The notes beneath the pieces were generated by a model. That model ran no database searches, was not told the DNA's origin, and saw only the letters and a list, made by a program, of their open reading frames with translations. Of a DNA stretch of 64,000 nt, positions 6,126-64,000 are shown piece by piece (within the stretch, counting starts at the first letter, position 1; each line of letters begins with the position of its first letter). The DNA is from Bacillus pumilus (lineage in GTDB: Bacteria; Bacillota; Bacilli; Bacillales; Bacillaceae). Location of the stretch: NCBI RefSeq assembly GCF_003431975.1, contig NZ_CP027116.1, positions 2,480,001 to 2,544,000 of the forward strand, written 5' to 3'. The position numbers and the translations under genes were made by a program.

Positions 6126-6158
6126 TACAAAAAAGATACTGTCTTTTGACCAGTATCT
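6126..6158 (-). terminator. hxlR terminator hairpin adjoining a dispersed element
   Basis: On the minus strand AGATACTG pairs with CAGTATCT around a 9-base loop and is followed by TTTTTTTG, a textbook Rho-independent terminator. It is separated from the hxlR stop codon by the dispersed element at 6159-6285. A worn remnant resembling its arm (TTTGGTCGTATTTC, 6286-6299) lies on the other side of the element. Confidence 0.75.
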
Positions 6159-24481: not shown

Positions 24482-24521
24482 GGGACTGACCCCCGTTTTT
24501 GAGACAGGGATCAAAACACCT

Positions 24522-25322
24522 TTATACAGCCAATTGCCGATAGTTTATCGGTGATTGGTTGTTTAGTTTCGTTTGAATACGAATGTTGTTATAATAATAA
24601 ATGTATTCTTTGACAGTGCGTTCTACGATGGTGGTCGTAGTTCGATCAATCCTGTTAAGATAGAACGTTTCAGACTTTAGTGAGGAATGAAACGATTCGA
24701 TGGAGGCATTATCAGCGGGTGTCCCTTTACGGGACATACTCATGGTAATGCCTTTTATATGAACAGCTTTCTGATACTCGTAAGATGTATACACAGAACC
24801 TTGATCGCTATGTAACACGCAGTTCTTAGGCAATGCTGGTAGCTGATCAAGTGTGTTTAAGATAAAGTCTGTATCCTGCTTATCACCAATATTAAAAGCA
24901 ATCACTTCTCCATTATACAAATCCAATATACTGGAAAGGTACAATGGTTTCTGTCCATAAGGCAAATACGTGATGTCCGTTACTAGTTTTTCAAGAGGGC
25001 GATCAGACTGAAAGTTCCGATCCAGTATGTTTCCGGCCACGGCATAGGGCTGCCCATTCTTCTTACGCTTTTTCATTTTAACACGGCATTGCCACTGGTT
25101 TTTCTGCATGATACGTTGAACAGTTTTATGGTTAATACGCATTCTCATTTTTAGTATGGCTGTGATTTTTCGATATCCATATCGATACTTGTGCTTTCGG
25201 CACAACGTGCCGACCTGTTTCTCTAGTTGTCTTTTAGATTGATTCTGATTCAGCTCCTTTTTCCATCTATAATACGAAGTGCGTAAGATGCCTAAATGGA
25301 CACAAACGTCCTGTACCGTCAT
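24522..25322 (-). CDS. IS3-family transposase OrfB (DDE integrase domain)
   Basis: 266 residues as an independent reading; in vivo it is probably made as an OrfAB fusion. An N-terminal HTH_21-like stretch (YRYGYRKITAIL) is followed by the rve catalytic core: first Asp in LVTDITYLPYG, second in VLHSDQGSVYTS, Glu in DNASIESFHSSLKSE. All three DDE residues are present and the C-terminus YYNNIRIQTKLNNQSPINYR is typical. Open reading in the -1 frame continues back without a stop into orfA. Confidence 0.9.
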   Translation of the reverse strand: MTVQDVCVHLGILRTSYYRWKKELNQNQSKRQLEKQVGTLCRKHKYRYGYRKITAILKMRMRINHKTVQRIMQKNQWQCRVKMKKRKKNGQPYAVAGNILDRNFQSDRPLEKLVTDITYLPYGQKPLYLSSILDLYNGEVIAFNIGDKQDTDFILNTLDQLPALPKNCVLHSDQGSVYTSYEYQKAVHIKGITMSMSRKGTPADNASIESFHSSLKSETFYLNRIDRTTTTIVERTVKEYIYYYNNIRIQTKLNNQSPINYRQLAV

Positions 25323-25339
25323 CGTTTTGCGAAATTCTT

Positions 25340-25672
25340 CTACCAGTTTGATTGACGTTTCCTTATCAACTTCCTTTCCAATTCGTTGTACTTTTTTAAA
25401 ATTTCATTCTGTTGGCTCAGATAACGATTTTCCGCCTGCAGTCTCTCTAATTCGGAAGAGTACTCGGGACCCTTTCCATAGGTATATTGTTTTCCAACAG
25501 GCTGTTCGAACCGGTGTGTATCCCCAGCCTTATGCCACCTCATCCAGGTCTGAACCTGCGTCTTATTCTTGATATTCAATTCCTGCAAGATTTCTTTCAT
25601 AGGTACGCCTGCCAATCTCATTTCTACAGCCTTCTGTTTGACTTCAACCGGATAACTCACTCTTGTCCCCAT
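25340..25672 (-). CDS. IS3-family transposase OrfA (helix-turn-helix protein)
   Basis: 110 residues with a Hin/Tnp-type helix-turn-helix (YPVEVKQKAVEMRLAGVPMK, then NIKNKTQVQTWMRWHKAG) and a C-terminal leucine-zipper-like helix (LERLQAENRYLSQQNEILKK). It provides DNA-end recognition. Near its 3' end it holds the slippery heptamer A-AAA-AAG in frame. ATG at 25672 follows AAAACATGGAGGTG within the IS left border. Confidence 0.88.
   Translation of the reverse strand: MGTRVSYPVEVKQKAVEMRLAGVPMKEILQELNIKNKTQVQTWMRWHKAGDTHRFEQPVGKQYTYGKGPEYSSELERLQAENRYLSQQNEILKKYNELERKLIRKRQSNW
25391..25397 (-). other. Programmed -1 frameshift site of the IS3-family element
   Basis: The heptamer AAAAAAG on the minus strand is read A-AAA-AAG in the orfA frame. 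After a -1 slip the next codons (GTA CAA CGA ATT ...) stay open through the orfA stop and join the orfB frame before MTVQDV. This is the standard way IS3 elements make OrfAB transposase. Confidence 0.75.
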
Positions 25673-25774
25673 AGAAAAAACACCTCCATGTTTTATTTCG
25701 GATCACAACGATCCGTTTTGAAACTTGAAGGTGTTTTTTATTTGTCTCATTTTATGGGGTCAGTCCCGATATAC

Positions 25775-27324: not shown

Positions 27325-27346
27325 AGACTCTTCATCAGAAGAGTCT
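27325..27346. repeat. Left target duplication of the IS1182-family element (a terminator hairpin)
   Basis: A 22-bp direct repeat whose sequence is itself a hairpin: AGACTCTTC, loop ATCA, GAAGAGTCT. The second copy is at 28897-28918. The uninterrupted site would read AAAAGACTCTTC-ATCA-GAAGAGTCTCTTTT, a bidirectional terminator. Confidence 0.8.
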
Positions 27347-28896
27347 CAGATTGTAGAGAAACTCATGTTTTTCTACAATCTTTTTTATTTTTAGCGTAAG
27401 TATGATGGATGAAAATTAATGAAAAAGGCTTCCCACACACCTAGCCTAGCTTCGCTAGGTGTGTGGCAATCTTTTTCATGTTCTGGCACGCAGCTGTGAG
27501 GAGAACTTGCTCACTCACGTTTTGTTTTCCCCTCAACCGGCAGTAGCGAAGCCCATGCAGTTGTTTTGAATCTGCAAAGCTTCGCTCTATTTTTTCTTTT
27601 CTTTTTTTATATAGCTCTTTTCCAGAGACAGTTAACCGATTCTGTCTGATCTTTTCTTTATGTTCTTCCCATATGTGTCTTGAGATGACCTTTTGATGAT
27701 TTTTCGACCTTGTGCATCTTTCAAGGAAAGGACACGATGCACATTTTTTAGGATCTGATTTGTAGAATCGATAACCTTTTCGATCAGTTGTCGTATATAA
27801 AAGCTTCTCACCCTGTGGGCATATGTAATGATCATGTTCAGAATCATACTGAAATTTCCACTTCTCAAATAACCCTCTTGTTGGATGAAAACGTCTATGG
27901 GCAATGACACCAAAAACATGTCGATCAGATAAACCTTTACAGATTGGTGTTGTCAAATAACCTGAATCAAGCGCAACAGCTTCTACTTGAAAACCAAATC
28001 GTGCGATTTGGTGATCTAATCGATCAAGATACGGGACAGAATCATGGACATTTCCAGGTGTGACATGAGCATCAGTGATGATATTGTACTTCATATCCGT
28101 TGTACGATGATCTAGATAGAAAAAGCCTTCTGGCTTGTTTTCGCGATATAGATAGCCACTTTCAGGATCAGTCATACTTTGACGAATGTCTTTTTCTGTT
28201 TTCACCTCCTCTTTTACCTTTAAGAGCTTTTTTCCATGTGCCACCCGATCTTCTTGGACTGCTTCTTCTAAATCATTGATATAGTTCTGGGTATCTTGTT
28301 CAATCGTTTTTCTCGTATATTTATGTTTATTAGCATTAGCTTTAAGGTGAGTTGAATCAGTAAAAAGAACGCGACCTCCTACCATATCATGATTGATAGC
28401 TTGAAGCACAATCTCATCGAAAATGTCTTGAAAAATCGTTGTATCTTTAAATCGAGTACGACGATTCCAGCTAATGGTCGAGTGATGAGGAACGGGGTCA
28501 TTGATGTTCAAACCTAAAAACCATCTATACGCCATGTTATAGTAAATTTCTTTTTCGAGTTGTCTTTCAGAACGGATACCGTACAGGTATCCGATAAACA
28601 TCATTTTGAACAAAATAAGCGGATCAAGAGAAGGACGGCCTTTATTCTCACTATAATAGGGTTTTACTTTATCTACGATAAATGAAAAATCAATGTACTG
28701 ATCAATTTTACGAAGCAGGTGATCCTCTTCGACCAGTTGATCTAGCAATACAAATTCGGCTTCATGCTGAGAAGAATTTCTAGTGTGGAACATGAGAAAA
28801 AACACCTTCCTTAAGTGGGTTTTTCTCTATTATAAAATGAGGAGATGGAAAGTTTAAGGGGAAAAATAAAGCTGTCGAGATTTTCTCGACAGCCTG
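27347..28896 (-). mobile_element. IS1182-family insertion sequence, complete (1550 bp)
   Basis: Terminal inverted repeats are CAGATTGTAGAGAAAC at the left and, read inward, CAGGCTGTCGAGAAAA at the right. Both ends continue into hairpins (AGATTGTAGA... and GCTGTCGAGA...). It encodes one intact transposase on the minus strand. Flanking 22-bp direct repeats contain a terminator hairpin. The same CAGNNTGTNGANAAA ends occur in the short dispersed elements of this window. Confidence 0.85.
27441..28793 (-). CDS. IS1182-family transposase
   Basis: 450 residues from the ATG at 28793, nine bases after GGAAGGTG. N-terminal DUF772-type domain (LVEEDHLLRKIDQYIDFSFI; GRPSLDPLILFKMMFIGYL), then the DDE core: Asp in LFTDSTHLKANANKHKY, Asp in AVALDSGYLTTP, and Glu in EKIERSFADSKQLHGLRYCR. 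A zinc-ribbon-like insert (CPQGEK...CASCPFLERC) sits before the last block, as usual. Full length and apparently intact. Its 3' end overlaps a hairpin (27433-27466). Confidence 0.93.
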   Translation of the reverse strand: MFHTRNSSQHEAEFVLLDQLVEEDHLLRKIDQYIDFSFIVDKVKPYYSENKGRPSLDPLILFKMMFIGYLYGIRSERQLEKEIYYNMAYRWFLGLNINDPVPHHSTISWNRRTRFKDTTIFQDIFDEIVLQAINHDMVGGRVLFTDSTHLKANANKHKYTRKTIEQDTQNYINDLEEAVQEDRVAHGKKLLKVKEEVKTEKDIRQSMTDPESGYLYRENKPEGFFYLDHRTTDMKYNIITDAHVTPGNVHDSVPYLDRLDHQIARFGFQVEAVALDSGYLTTPICKGLSDRHVFGVIAHRRFHPTRGLFEKWKFQYDSEHDHYICPQGEKLLYTTTDRKGYRFYKSDPKKCASCPFLERCTRSKNHQKVISRHIWEEHKEKIRQNRLTVSGKELYKKRKEKIERSFADSKQLHGLRYCRLRGKQNVSEQVLLTAACQNMKKIATHLAKLG

Positions 28897-28918
28897 AGAC
28901 TCTTCATCAGAAGAGTCT
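28897..28918. repeat. Right target duplication of the IS1182-family element (terminator hairpin)
   Basis: Identical to 27325-27346 and followed by CTTTTG, which completes the terminator tail. Confidence 0.8.
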
Positions 28919-34728: not shown

Positions 34729-34914
34729 TTTCTTTCCCTCCACTTTATCATTTTATTCCTATGCGTATAGTATGTTTTGATTCGTCGAACAGTTCTTATC
34801 CTACCATATCTTCTGTTTCTTTCCTACTAATAAATACTGGGAGGGGTAGAAAAATAGTTGCCCTTTTAGAGGAGAGAGATTAAGATGAATGGAGAGTATG
34901 GAGGGGTGAATCGA

Positions 34915-35118
34915 ATGGATTTTCAATTGGATTTTTTAAAGGATAAAATTGAATTCTTTGAAGCATCGTCTTTAAAAGAACTTGAACAAAAGATTCAAAA
35001 ACAAATTGAACATAATCAGGCGATCCTGCTCACTGTTCATTCTGTTAGTCACCAAACGACTGTAATCGATGACCGAATGATATATACGGCAGTTGTTCAT
35101 TTTAAGGCGAATGTCTAA
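34915..35118 (+). CDS. yrzA: YrzA family protein (DUF2536)
   Basis: 67 residues starting MDFQLDFLKDKIEFFEASSL. The ATG at 34915 follows GGAGGGGTGAATCG, and the resulting length equals that of B. subtilis YrzA; the earlier ATG at 34885 adds ten unlikely residues. Soluble, acidic helix then beta strands. Function unknown. Its terminator has been duplicated around a mobile element. Confidence 0.85.
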   Translation: MDFQLDFLKDKIEFFEASSLKELEQKIQKQIEHNQAILLTVHSVSHQTTVIDDRMIYTAVVHFKANV

Positions 35119-35123
35119 ATAAA

Positions 35124-35147
35124 AAAGATAGCATGGCTGCTATCTTT
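35124..35147. terminator. yrzA terminator hairpin, left copy (direct repeat)
   Basis: AAAGATAGCA-TGGC-TGCTATCTTT, a 10-bp perfect stem. The identical 24 bases recur at 35328-35351 on the far side of the dispersed element. The left copy has lost its T tail because CAG of the element follows directly. Confidence 0.85.
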
Positions 35148-35327
35148 CAGCGTGTAGACAAACCCTCGCATTCGTTGTCAGTCCTGCGTACTGGTGCTCA
35201 CGAATGTCAAATTCGCTCCGCTCCAGTACTCGTCCTTCCTAGACTTCAAAGGTTTTCTATCACGCTGAGCTGAAAAGAAGACAAAGGGCTAAAATAAAGA
35301 TCATTTTAGCCCTTTGTCAACAATCTG
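35148..35327 (+). mobile_element. Terminator-targeting MITE, copy B (complete, 180 bp)
   Basis: Begins CAGCGTGTAGACAAACCC and ends GTCAACAATCTG. Read inward, its two ends are CAGCGTGTAGACAAAC and CAGATTGTTGACAAAG, which match the IS1182-family ends in this window (CAGNNTGTNGANAAA). The right part contains a near-perfect 16-bp inverted repeat, GACAAAGGGCTAAAAT facing ATTTTAGCCCTTTGTC. Flanking 24-bp direct repeats are the yrzA terminator hairpin. No open reading frame. Confidence 0.85.
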
Positions 35328-35351
35328 AAAGATAGCATGGCTGCTATCTTT
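35328..35351. terminator. yrzA/yrrS terminator hairpin, right copy with T tail
   Basis: Same 24 bases as 35124-35147, here followed by TTTTTTC. It terminates the plus-strand transcript and lies nine bases from the yrrS stop codon. Confidence 0.85.
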
Positions 35352-35360
35352 TTTTCATGT

Positions 35361-36026
35361 TTATTTTAATTTTTCAACCTTTACAGGTTTCCAGCCTTTT
35401 TCATCTACCCACGTAATTTCCACGCGATAGCGTTCGCCTGTTGATTTGTCACGGATGGTTCCTTTTGCATCTTGAGGGCCACCGTTATTTCCTAACCAAA
35501 GAACTGTTAGTTGATCTTCTGAAATTCCTGTCGCATAAGACATGGCTTTGATCATTTCTTTCCAGTCTTTTGAGTTAGAATCATAAGTCGCTGTATGTGA
35601 ACCAGATTGCTCTGTCCCTACAGGCTCCCAGTCATCACTCTCGTATGTTTTGTCTACGTCACTCGTTTTGCCGCCGTCTGTTTCTTTGGCATCTTTTAAC
35701 GCATCTTTATTAGTTTTTTCTTCATCATCTGTCTTCTTCGTATCGTCGTCTTGATCAGATGAATCGTCTTTTTTTGCATCCGCATCATCATCAGATGTGT
35801 CTTTCTTTGGATCTTTCACATCTTCTTCTGAGTTTTGTTTATTTTCACTTGTTGCAGGTGCCGTTTTTGATGGTTCGTTCGCTACATCTTTCGGTGGTCT
35901 ATTAAAAATTAATAAGCTCGATGCGACAACCAAAATAAGCACCACAACGATACCAATTAATATGTTAAGCACCATATTCGCCTTTCTGCGCTTATCACGA
36001 TGTTCAAATCGAGAATTTCTACTCAA
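35361..36026 (-). CDS. yrrS: YrrS, single-span membrane protein (DUF1510)
   Basis: 221 residues: basic cytoplasmic head (RFEHRDKRRKANM), one membrane helix (VLNILIGIVVVLILVVASSLLIF), a long Asp/Lys/Ser-rich linker (about 50-125) and a compact C-terminal domain (YATGISEDQLTVLWLGNNGG, residues 165-221). In B. subtilis it is co-transcribed with pbpI and made in sporulation. The low-complexity linker is normal for the family. Confidence 0.9.
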   Translation of the reverse strand: MSRNSRFEHRDKRRKANMVLNILIGIVVVLILVVASSLLIFNRPPKDVANEPSKTAPATSENKQNSEEDVKDPKKDTSDDDADAKKDDSSDQDDDTKKTDDEEKTNKDALKDAKETDGGKTSDVDKTYESDDWEPVGTEQSGSHTATYDSNSKDWKEMIKAMSYATGISEDQLTVLWLGNNGGPQDAKGTIRDKSTGERYRVEITWVDEKGWKPVKVEKLK

Positions 36027-50865: not shown

Positions 50866-51110
50866 CGAAAAAACATCCCGCCCTATGCAAGCACAAAACG
50901 ACTTACACAGGGACGAGATGTTCTCGCGGTACCACCCTGATTATAGACTTATTCGTCTATCACCTTCACATCCGATAACGCCGGAAGAGAGCGGCAGTGT
51001 TTATCTGCACTCGGGACTAGCTTCCGTTAAAGGTCTGATAAGGCTTTTCTCAGCAACATAAAGCCTCTCTCTGCAACAGCTTTTTAACGTACTCGGGTCC
51101 GTCATTGAAT
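50866..51110 (-). promoter_or_regulatory. T-box riboswitch (alanine) upstream of alaS
   Basis: On the minus strand: stem I with AGTA and specifier loop CGGAAGCTAG, giving GCT (Ala, 51019-51021), the T-box AGGGTGGTACCGCG (50925-50938), and a terminator with AACATC/GATGTT outer arms (50870-50922) followed by T. Uncharged tRNA-Ala should allow read-through into alaS. This leader calibrates the reading of the other T-box in the window. Confidence 0.95.
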
Positions 51111-51160
51111 TCAATATGTAGTATGAATCGAAATTATTATAGACAACTCGGCTCCTCTTG

Positions 51161-55340: not shown

Positions 55341-55345
55341 AAAAG

Positions 55346-55460
55346 GCATTCGGTGTCAGGTCTGCGCTCCGGCGCTCTCCCTTCCTAGACTTCAAAGATT
55401 TTTTTTCACGCTGAAAATGAAAACAAAGGGCTATCAATTTAGCCCTTTGTCAACAATCTG
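55346..55460 (+). mobile_element. Terminator-associated MITE, copy C (5' end lost)
   Basis: Aligns with copies B and D from GCATTCGGTGTCAGGTCTGCG to the terminal GTCAACAATCTG, including TTCCTAGACTTCAAAG and ACAAAGGGCTATCAAT facing ATTTAGCCCTTTGT. The CAGCGTGTAGACAAACC end is missing. It lies between the glnP stop and its terminator. Confidence 0.78.
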
Positions 55461-55462
55461 GG

Positions 55463-55490
55463 ACATCCGCTTTTGGCGGATGTTTGTTTT
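55463..55490 (+). terminator. glnP terminator displaced behind the MITE
   Basis: CATCCGC-TTTTG-GCGGATG followed by TTTGTTTT, directly after the CTG end of the element. Confidence 0.8.
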
Positions 55491-63826: not shown

Positions 63827-63857
63827 AAAAGCCCCCTGCATGTGAGCAGACGGGCTA
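63827..63857. terminator. rarA terminator adjoining MITE copy D
   Basis: AGCCCCCTGC and GCAGACGGGCT arms (one bulge) around ATGTGA, with a T run on the minus-strand side. The element's CAG begins one base after the stem. Confidence 0.75.
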
Positions 63858-64000
63858 CAGATTGTTGACAAAGGGCTAAAATGATGTTTGTTTTAGCCCT
63901 TCGTCTTCTTTTCAGCGCAACATGAAAACCTTTGAAGTCTAAGGAAGGACGAGCAAAAGAGCGCAGACCTGACAAAGAATGCGATGGTTTGTCTACACGC
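63858..64000 (-). mobile_element. Terminator-associated MITE, copy D (cut by window edge)
   Basis: Opposite orientation to copy B. Reads CAGATTGTTGACAAAGGGCT at 63858 and ends at the window border in GTCTACACGC, two bases short of the expected terminal TG (CTG end). All shared blocks are present (CTTCTTTTCAGC, GAAGTCTAAGGAAGGACGAG, CGCAGACCTGACAAAGAATG). It would be about 145 bp long; copy B has 35 bp more in the middle. Confidence 0.82.

Follow-up and report, generated by a model that had tools for sequence, protein, structure and literature searches.

How an entire terminator hairpin came to stand on both sides of a short sequence without a transposase gene is the question raised by the region behind a yrzA-like gene of Bacillus pumilus. 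The whole stretch of DNA that was analysed, 64 kb in length, is called here the window, and positions are given in it. The name yrzA is the label of a preliminary description made from the sequence only, the profile basis being DUF2536, and the gene (77 codons) lies to the left of the element. The locus contains the following features:

34885-35118, forward strand: yrzA-like gene (DUF2536; PF10750, 109.9 bits), whose own terminator is the insertion target
35124-35147, no strand: left hairpin copy, the duplicated terminator, 24 bp, present as a single copy in five relatives
35148-35327, forward strand: MITE of 180 bp with IS1182-type ends CAGCGTGTAGACAAA...TTTGTCAACAATCTG, from sequence and end comparison
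35148-35162, forward strand: left terminal inverted repeat, from end comparison
35280-35318, forward strand: right-end hairpin with a 16-bp stem and compensatory changes among copies (alignment columns 137-176)
35313-35327, reverse strand: right terminal inverted repeat, from end comparison
35328-35351, no strand: right hairpin copy, in which transcripts arriving from the yrzA side still meet a full T-tract
35361-36026, reverse strand: convergent DUF1510 gene (PF07423, 132.1 bits)

The hairpin AAAGATAGCATGGCTGCTATCTTT is identical at 35124-35147 and 35328-35351, with the element between, and this 24-bp repeat folds over its whole length with a 10-bp stem. The ends of the yrzA copy, CAGCGTGTAGACAAA and TTTGTCAACAATCTG, are imperfect inverted repeats. 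The preliminary description had placed the element at 35148-35327 between perfect 24-bp hairpin repeats, coordinates that proved exact, and had considered it non-autonomous, which is borne out by its short length and by the lack of a transposase gene.

Four related copies had also been reported for the window, all of them beside terminators. Both statements hold, two of the four being truncated copies with a hairpin on one side. Besides the yrzA copy these are:

6159 to about 6285, forward strand: degraded relative with a hairpin on the left only (6135-6157)
55345-55460, forward strand: left-truncated relative with a hairpin on the right only (55462-55483)
63858-64000, reverse strand: two-ended relative, reversed, extending 2 bases beyond the window, with a hairpin at 63829-63857

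The last of these has both ends present and an imperfect 29-bp repeat in which 26 of the 29 positions match.

The window also harbours an IS3-family element (24482-25767; NF033516, 267.9 bits for the larger ORF), which sits in a terminator-like hairpin, inside the loop, and is bordered on either side by GAT. In genome G021 (locus L266) a hairpin loop likewise holds an element whose ends and ORFs are similar, and IS3 may be a second, unrelated transposon family using terminator loops. A described RNA family was considered as a candidate for the 180-bp element and rejected: at the gathering threshold of Rfam the window contains only a T-box leader (50906-51114, 97.8 bits) and a match to rli23 (24621-24718, 48.3 bits, on the opposite strand within the IS3-family transposase ORF), both of them elsewhere.

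When the own genome (3,937,399 bases, one contig) was searched at the DNA level, 75 stretches matched, and 40 of these were nearly full length with 88-100% identity. The end motif was matched within one mismatch 156 times, the first 100 of these being listed individually, against 18 times for the reversed control. The census comprises 45 distinct two-ended copies, not all copies, with 40 of 90 candidates scored. The element is mostly 174-180 bp long, has no transposase gene and carries the terminal inverted repeats CAGCGTGTAGACAAA and CAGATTGTTGACAAA. In 37 of the 45 copies the element is flanked by direct repeats at least 15 bp long, which measure 17-30 bp (median 24) and are identical in 27 cases. 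A hairpin of at least 7 bp spans 33 of the 37 repeats from end to end, compared with 829 of 14,800 random control words of equal length drawn from these loci (including the sequence of the element itself), and the association of hairpin and repeat is therefore far beyond chance. By a laxer measure a hairpin is present at both edges of 39 of the 45 copies and at 96 of 400 random edges. The hairpin sequence differs between sites and no shared stem motif was recognized by eye, so that hairpins appear to be targeted without a sequence consensus. Eight of the 45 copies have no clean repeat (L023, L027, L079, L081, L082, L083, L096 and L100), and most of these have a hairpin on at least one side. 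Copies lacking border hairpins throughout the genome would have contradicted the preliminary description; what was found is a minority, the same eight of 45, in which a clean hairpin repeat is absent.

Among 41 genomes (the own genome and 40 others) detection was confined to the genus, where 18 of 25 genomes have the element; it was absent from all 16 genomes of other genera searched; a genus-wide search found the MITE in 34 of 44 genomes. Of 28 MITE loci given for the relatives, among which L052 and L067 are probably one copy counted twice, 27 are two-ended; 20 of these have repeats of at least 15 bp, every one a hairpin (20/20), and seven have no clean repeat. Empty sites were then compared. 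Seven genomes were searched for the yrzA site, two of which (G004 and G010) were left out as too divergent there; in the other five (G003, G016, G017, G021 and G008) the site is empty and contains exactly one hairpin between the aligned flanks. For 18 further sites the flanks were joined around one hairpin, four genomes were searched and the sequences were then read. With yrzA in the same four genomes this makes 19 sites and 76 pairs of site and genome, of which 66 were readable, one of them being an alignment artefact. In 37 of the 66 the element is missing and the flanks are 19-35 bp apart. The strict hairpin test is passed by 31 of these short intervals; the other six, which failed it because the alignment anchors cut into the stem, are by eye one hairpin each. 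For 17 of the 19 sites the strict test finds at least one relative with the site empty. Two full hairpins at an empty site, an observation that would have spoken against the preliminary description, were seen in none of the 37, with one hairpin plus half of another at the L020 site in G003. The MITE thus has both a target-site duplication and empty sites in relatives, and the earlier interpretation of the repeats as a target-site duplication of the entire hairpin is supported by the single hairpin that these sites hold.

At the L020 site of G003 (locus L241) the half hairpin is followed directly by the full one, which looks like a deletion scar between duplicated hairpins. The longer intervals, 28 of the 66 pairs, contain copies or remains of the MITE or of the insertion sequences IS-A and IS-B described below, or other insertions; one of them, of 41 bp, has ambiguous content (L004 in G016). 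The element has the opposite orientation at L009 in G016 and at L018 in G021, and these terminators have therefore probably been hit more than once. Moreover, at sites occupied here by the MITE, IS-B is found between duplicated hairpins in G021 (L009 and L014) and IS-A in G016 (L010). In G017 (L061) a partial second MITE copy abuts a full copy with no hairpin between them. In G049 (L280) IS-B occupies a hairpin right at the border of a MITE copy and appears to have inserted there, so that insertions nest. Three records labelled as Stutzerimonas and Klebsiella plasmids (NZ_CP078511.1, NZ_CP078512.1 and CP063894.1) contain the Bacillus MITE with 79-94% identity, and are possibly mislabelled or derived from mixed cultures.

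The preliminary description could not name the element from known repeats. This has to be corrected, as there are IS1182-family relatives with similar ends which insert alike. PF13751 has 13 matches in the own genome, 11 of them long, and the boundaries of two kinds of full element could be defined, IS-A (1,505 bp) and IS-B (1,550 bp). Their transposases match NF033551 with 476.9 and 479.9 bits, above the curated cut-off of 270, as well as PF13751, PF05598 and PF01609, and by this measure IS-A and IS-B are members of the IS1182 family; the two proteins share 44% identity. The window itself contains one IS-B copy, with its transposase ORF at 27441-28805, between hairpins of 22 bp each:

27325-27346, no strand: duplicated hairpin left of IS-B
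27347-28896, reverse strand: full IS1182-family insertion sequence IS-B, 1,550 bp (NF033551, 479 bits at G000:2507462-2508778)
28897-28918, no strand: duplicated hairpin right of IS-B

The ends of IS-A are CAGCTTGTAGACAAAG and CAGACCGTAGACAAACCCC, those of IS-B CAGGCTGTCGAGAAAA and CAGATTGTAGAGAAACTC, and those of the MITE CAGCGTGTAGACAAACCC and CAGATTGTTGACAAAGGG, with a joint consensus of CAGnnYGTnGAnAAA. GACAAA is common to the ends of IS-A and of the MITE, which are similar, not identical, and no full insertion sequence with exactly the ends of the MITE was found. The MITE does not encode a transposase and is accordingly not itself counted in the IS1182 family; it is a dependent element rather than an IS because 180 bp are too short for transposases of 454-465 aa. 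It has similar ends and the same type of target as the members IS-A and IS-B, which also have hairpins at their ends. Duplicated hairpins flank eight of the 11 longer IS1182 elements of the genome, namely IS-A at L031, L033, L034 and L035 and IS-B at L036-L039. L032 and L040 are a joined, rearranged pair of IS-A and IS-B flanked by one outer hairpin type, and L102 is without a right end. In this pair (about 1480.9-1484 kb of the own genome) IS-A abuts a hairpin-shaped IS-B end, and the outer IS-B end carries IS-A end sequence. By eye, a palindromic direct repeat of 15-31 bp is present at all ten additional full-length IS1182 loci of the genus that were examined out of 30 named. A transposase above the family cut-off is encoded in 13 of the 44 congeners, and 37 of the 44 have any match.

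Beyond the genus, named genome contigs were scanned with both transposases and 80 loci, mostly of other genera with a few from Bacillus, were kept; 67 were examined after 13 short or cut loci had been dropped. A direct repeat of 17-42 bp flanks 45 of the 67, and 44 of these 45 repeats are hairpins (L156 and L158 represent one site from two strains, and L176 and L285, with the same repeat, may be the same site). The hosts include many Bacillota, Serratia and Marinobacter. By eye, the 22 loci without a clean repeat comprise six in which the hairpin at one end differs from that at the other (recombination between copies is a possible cause), four at a contig edge, ten with no convincing ends, one with half a hairpin on the right and one with a one-sided hairpin.

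On the mobilizable 8-kb Bacillus pumilus plasmid pBP-T2 a relative of IS-B is placed between duplicated hairpins of 28 bp (L312), a possible route between strains. Of other plasmid elements, that of S. simulans (L306) has two different hairpins, the ISEfa7 copy of E. faecium (L307) has no flanking repeat, and no ends were found for that of S. epidermidis (L311). Three distant plasmid members of the family (ISCfr1-like, Sphingomonas and Methylocystis) differ from the MITE in having other ends, near ATTCTGTTGAAAAA, and no hairpin; their repeats measure 4-6 bp in the best fit, or in the second-ranked one for Methylocystis. In the tree, which is rooted at the midpoint and has several uncertain long branches, these three group together and away from all others (100/99), and the hairpin duplicators need eight changes on it because the elements with two different hairpins are scattered.

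We consider it very probable that the yrzA element represents an IS1182-group MITE and that an IS1182-type transposase, acting in trans, moves it into terminator hairpins with duplication of the whole hairpin. Most DDE transposases are generally described as cutting their target with a fixed stagger. In the process that we propose, the DDE transposase of IS1182-type elements would act in trans on the CAG...CTG ends of the MITE, elements of the IS-A kind being its most likely source in view of the shared GACAAA. The MITE would be inserted at intrinsic-terminator hairpins, the two strands being joined at opposite (5') hairpin feet, in most cases 1-3 A/T bases beyond the G+C stem; with this joining the stagger would equal the hairpin, and gap repair would then duplicate the whole of it. 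The form recognized is presumably a DNA hairpin or cruciform. The length of the repeat follows the G+C-bounded span of the hairpin (r 0.82 for the 37 MITEs, 0.68 for 41 foreign IS and 0.71 for all 78), 41 of the 45 IS repeats being used and L116, L130, L158 and L189 left out. The repeat extends 1-3 A/T bases past the G+C stem on the left in 33 and on the right in 31 of the 37 MITE sites. Watson-Crick pairing could run 1-6 bp past the repeat in 24 of the 37, which means that the outermost foot is not strictly the place of the cut.

The nature of the target is where another explanation survives best. The same element and the same duplication are possible, at a clearly lower probability, with a paused termination complex, the single strands of a replication fork or the A-tract and T-tract flanking the palindrome as the target. 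This would suit the MITE repeats, which start with A in 32 and end with T in 32 of 37 cases. A link to termination would also suit the neighbouring genes: by crude ORF calls, the 28 copies with long flanks lie between convergent genes in 16 cases and tandem genes in nine, with one neighbour uncalled in three, at least one ORF 3' end faces the element in all 28, and a divergent arrangement was found in none of the 25 with both neighbours called. However, the repeat length tracks the stem and no common stem motif was seen by eye, both of which speak against this alternative, although neither these observations nor the sequence as such can separate extruded DNA from a termination complex as the target.

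That an IS1182-type transposase moves the MITE is suggested by the similar ends and the shared targets. A transposase of another family which happens to use the same target seems improbable as the mover. The lack of an IS with identical ends would agree with it, as would the presence of a transposase above the cut-off in 13 of 44 genomes against 34 of 44 for the MITE. Yet the ends CAGnnYGTnGAnAAA and the duplication of the whole hairpin are common to the IS1182 elements of the same genomes, and both kinds of element use the same individual terminators.

The preliminary description also held that insertion leaves termination intact, which is true of the far hairpin, which keeps its T-tract, but not of the gene-proximal one, which loses most of it. 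With a simple T-tract score, our own version of a published formula, the near hairpin of the left-hand gene has a median of 1.44 and the far one 4.30, the far being better in 36 of 37 copies; for the opposite strand the corresponding medians are 1.98 and 3.86, and the far hairpin is better in 33 of 37. With no good T-tract left at the near hairpin, transcripts are expected to run on into the element; it is the far hairpin that retains its tract. It is predicted that a bidirectional terminator tends to become two one-way terminators facing outward across the element, and that each convergent transcript should end beyond the element, at the far hairpin, about 200 bases further.

A recruited function of the element, as a structured RNA or a bidirectional 3' end module, we regard as unlikely. 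The yrzA copy with its hairpins folds strongly (z -9.2), and in an alignment of 22 copies from twelve genomes (87% mean column identity) a 48-pair structure is formed in 97.7% of cells, slid versions pairing in 30-44%. Changes on both sides occur at nine of the 48 pairs and the covariation score is above all 500 shuffles, but further pair types are not in excess (15 against 16.7 in the shuffles), which speaks against our reading; the clearest structural part is the 16-bp hairpin beside the right end. MITEs, however, usually fold strongly according to the available part of PMC3049150, the presence of the element varies among relatives, and the same signal is expected from DNA hairpins needed for transposition. 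We read the structure of the body as needed for the transposon ends, an RNA role being the alternative.

Much less probable is an untargeted insertion of which selection retains only the copies behind terminators. Insertions downstream of genes are the best tolerated, as argued for pneumococcal repeats (PMC3049150, in the part available), but harmless placement would match neither the duplicate to the hairpin nor its length to the stem. The notion that the element carries the hairpins with it, or that a local duplication produced them with no transposition involved, can be dismissed: most of the copies examined are flanked by them, but their sequence varies between sites, and relatives have a single one where the site is empty.

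Insertion by a transposase into terminators has to be compared with known systems. Class C group II introns also insert beside intrinsic terminators, as the MITE does, but by RNA-based retrotransposition and with no duplication of the hairpin. Direct repeats reaching about 60 bp appear in tables of the IS1182 family. For ISCaa15 and ISPse1 the tabulated repeats are 4 bp long (PMC3196728, PMC3281130; parts available), and some members target palindromes according to a 2015 review by Siguier and colleagues, as cited by others. IS1272 and TnSha1 of staphylococci resemble the MITE in belonging to or being related to the IS1182 family and in using inverted-repeat targets of unrelated sequence, several of them terminators (accessible parts of PMC5678879 and PMC4923244). 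They remove the hairpin wholly or partly and make no target duplication, IS1272 by deleting it, in what was called 'stem-loop replacing' transposition (PMC5678879), and TnSha1 by partial deletion (PMC4923244), whereas insertion of the MITE keeps and duplicates it: a hairpin is found on both sides of the MITE and a single one at its empty sites, which is not stem-loop replacement. RUP, BOX and SPRITE of Streptococcus pneumoniae are, like the MITE, short, interspersed, structured and enriched between convergent genes, but a terminator hairpin as duplicated target is not reported for them in the accessible part of PMC3049150.

The MITE, the IS1182 family and hairpin targeting are thus already known as kinds. 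In the literature covered (titles and abstract openings, with few subscription journals) we found no description of this element or of an IS1182-family MITE with hairpin duplication, and what is new, as far as that search reached, is whole-hairpin duplication as the usual outcome in the MITE and in a broad IS1182 group. Duplication of the whole hairpin had been drawn as a hypothetical pathway b in the legend of Fig 13 in the available part of PMC5678879, and the present copies provide many natural examples of it, against the published deletion by IS1272 of the same family.

We lean, with some reserve, towards a wider reading: that a widespread clade of IS1182-type transposases, together with the MITE, works without a fixed stagger, the target hairpin setting the cuts, so that the duplicate is whichever hairpin was hit (17-42 bp seen) and a bidirectional terminator would become two outward one-way terminators. 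The duplicated segment follows the hairpin hit, and not a fixed stagger, in the MITE and in related IS of many Bacillota and a few Proteobacteria. Since some terminators are used by different elements in different genomes, terminators may be hot spots of insertion. The element illustrates how hairpins can serve a transposon as sites of insertion, and for the genes whose ends are occupied in this way the transcript is predicted to stop about 200 bases further on.
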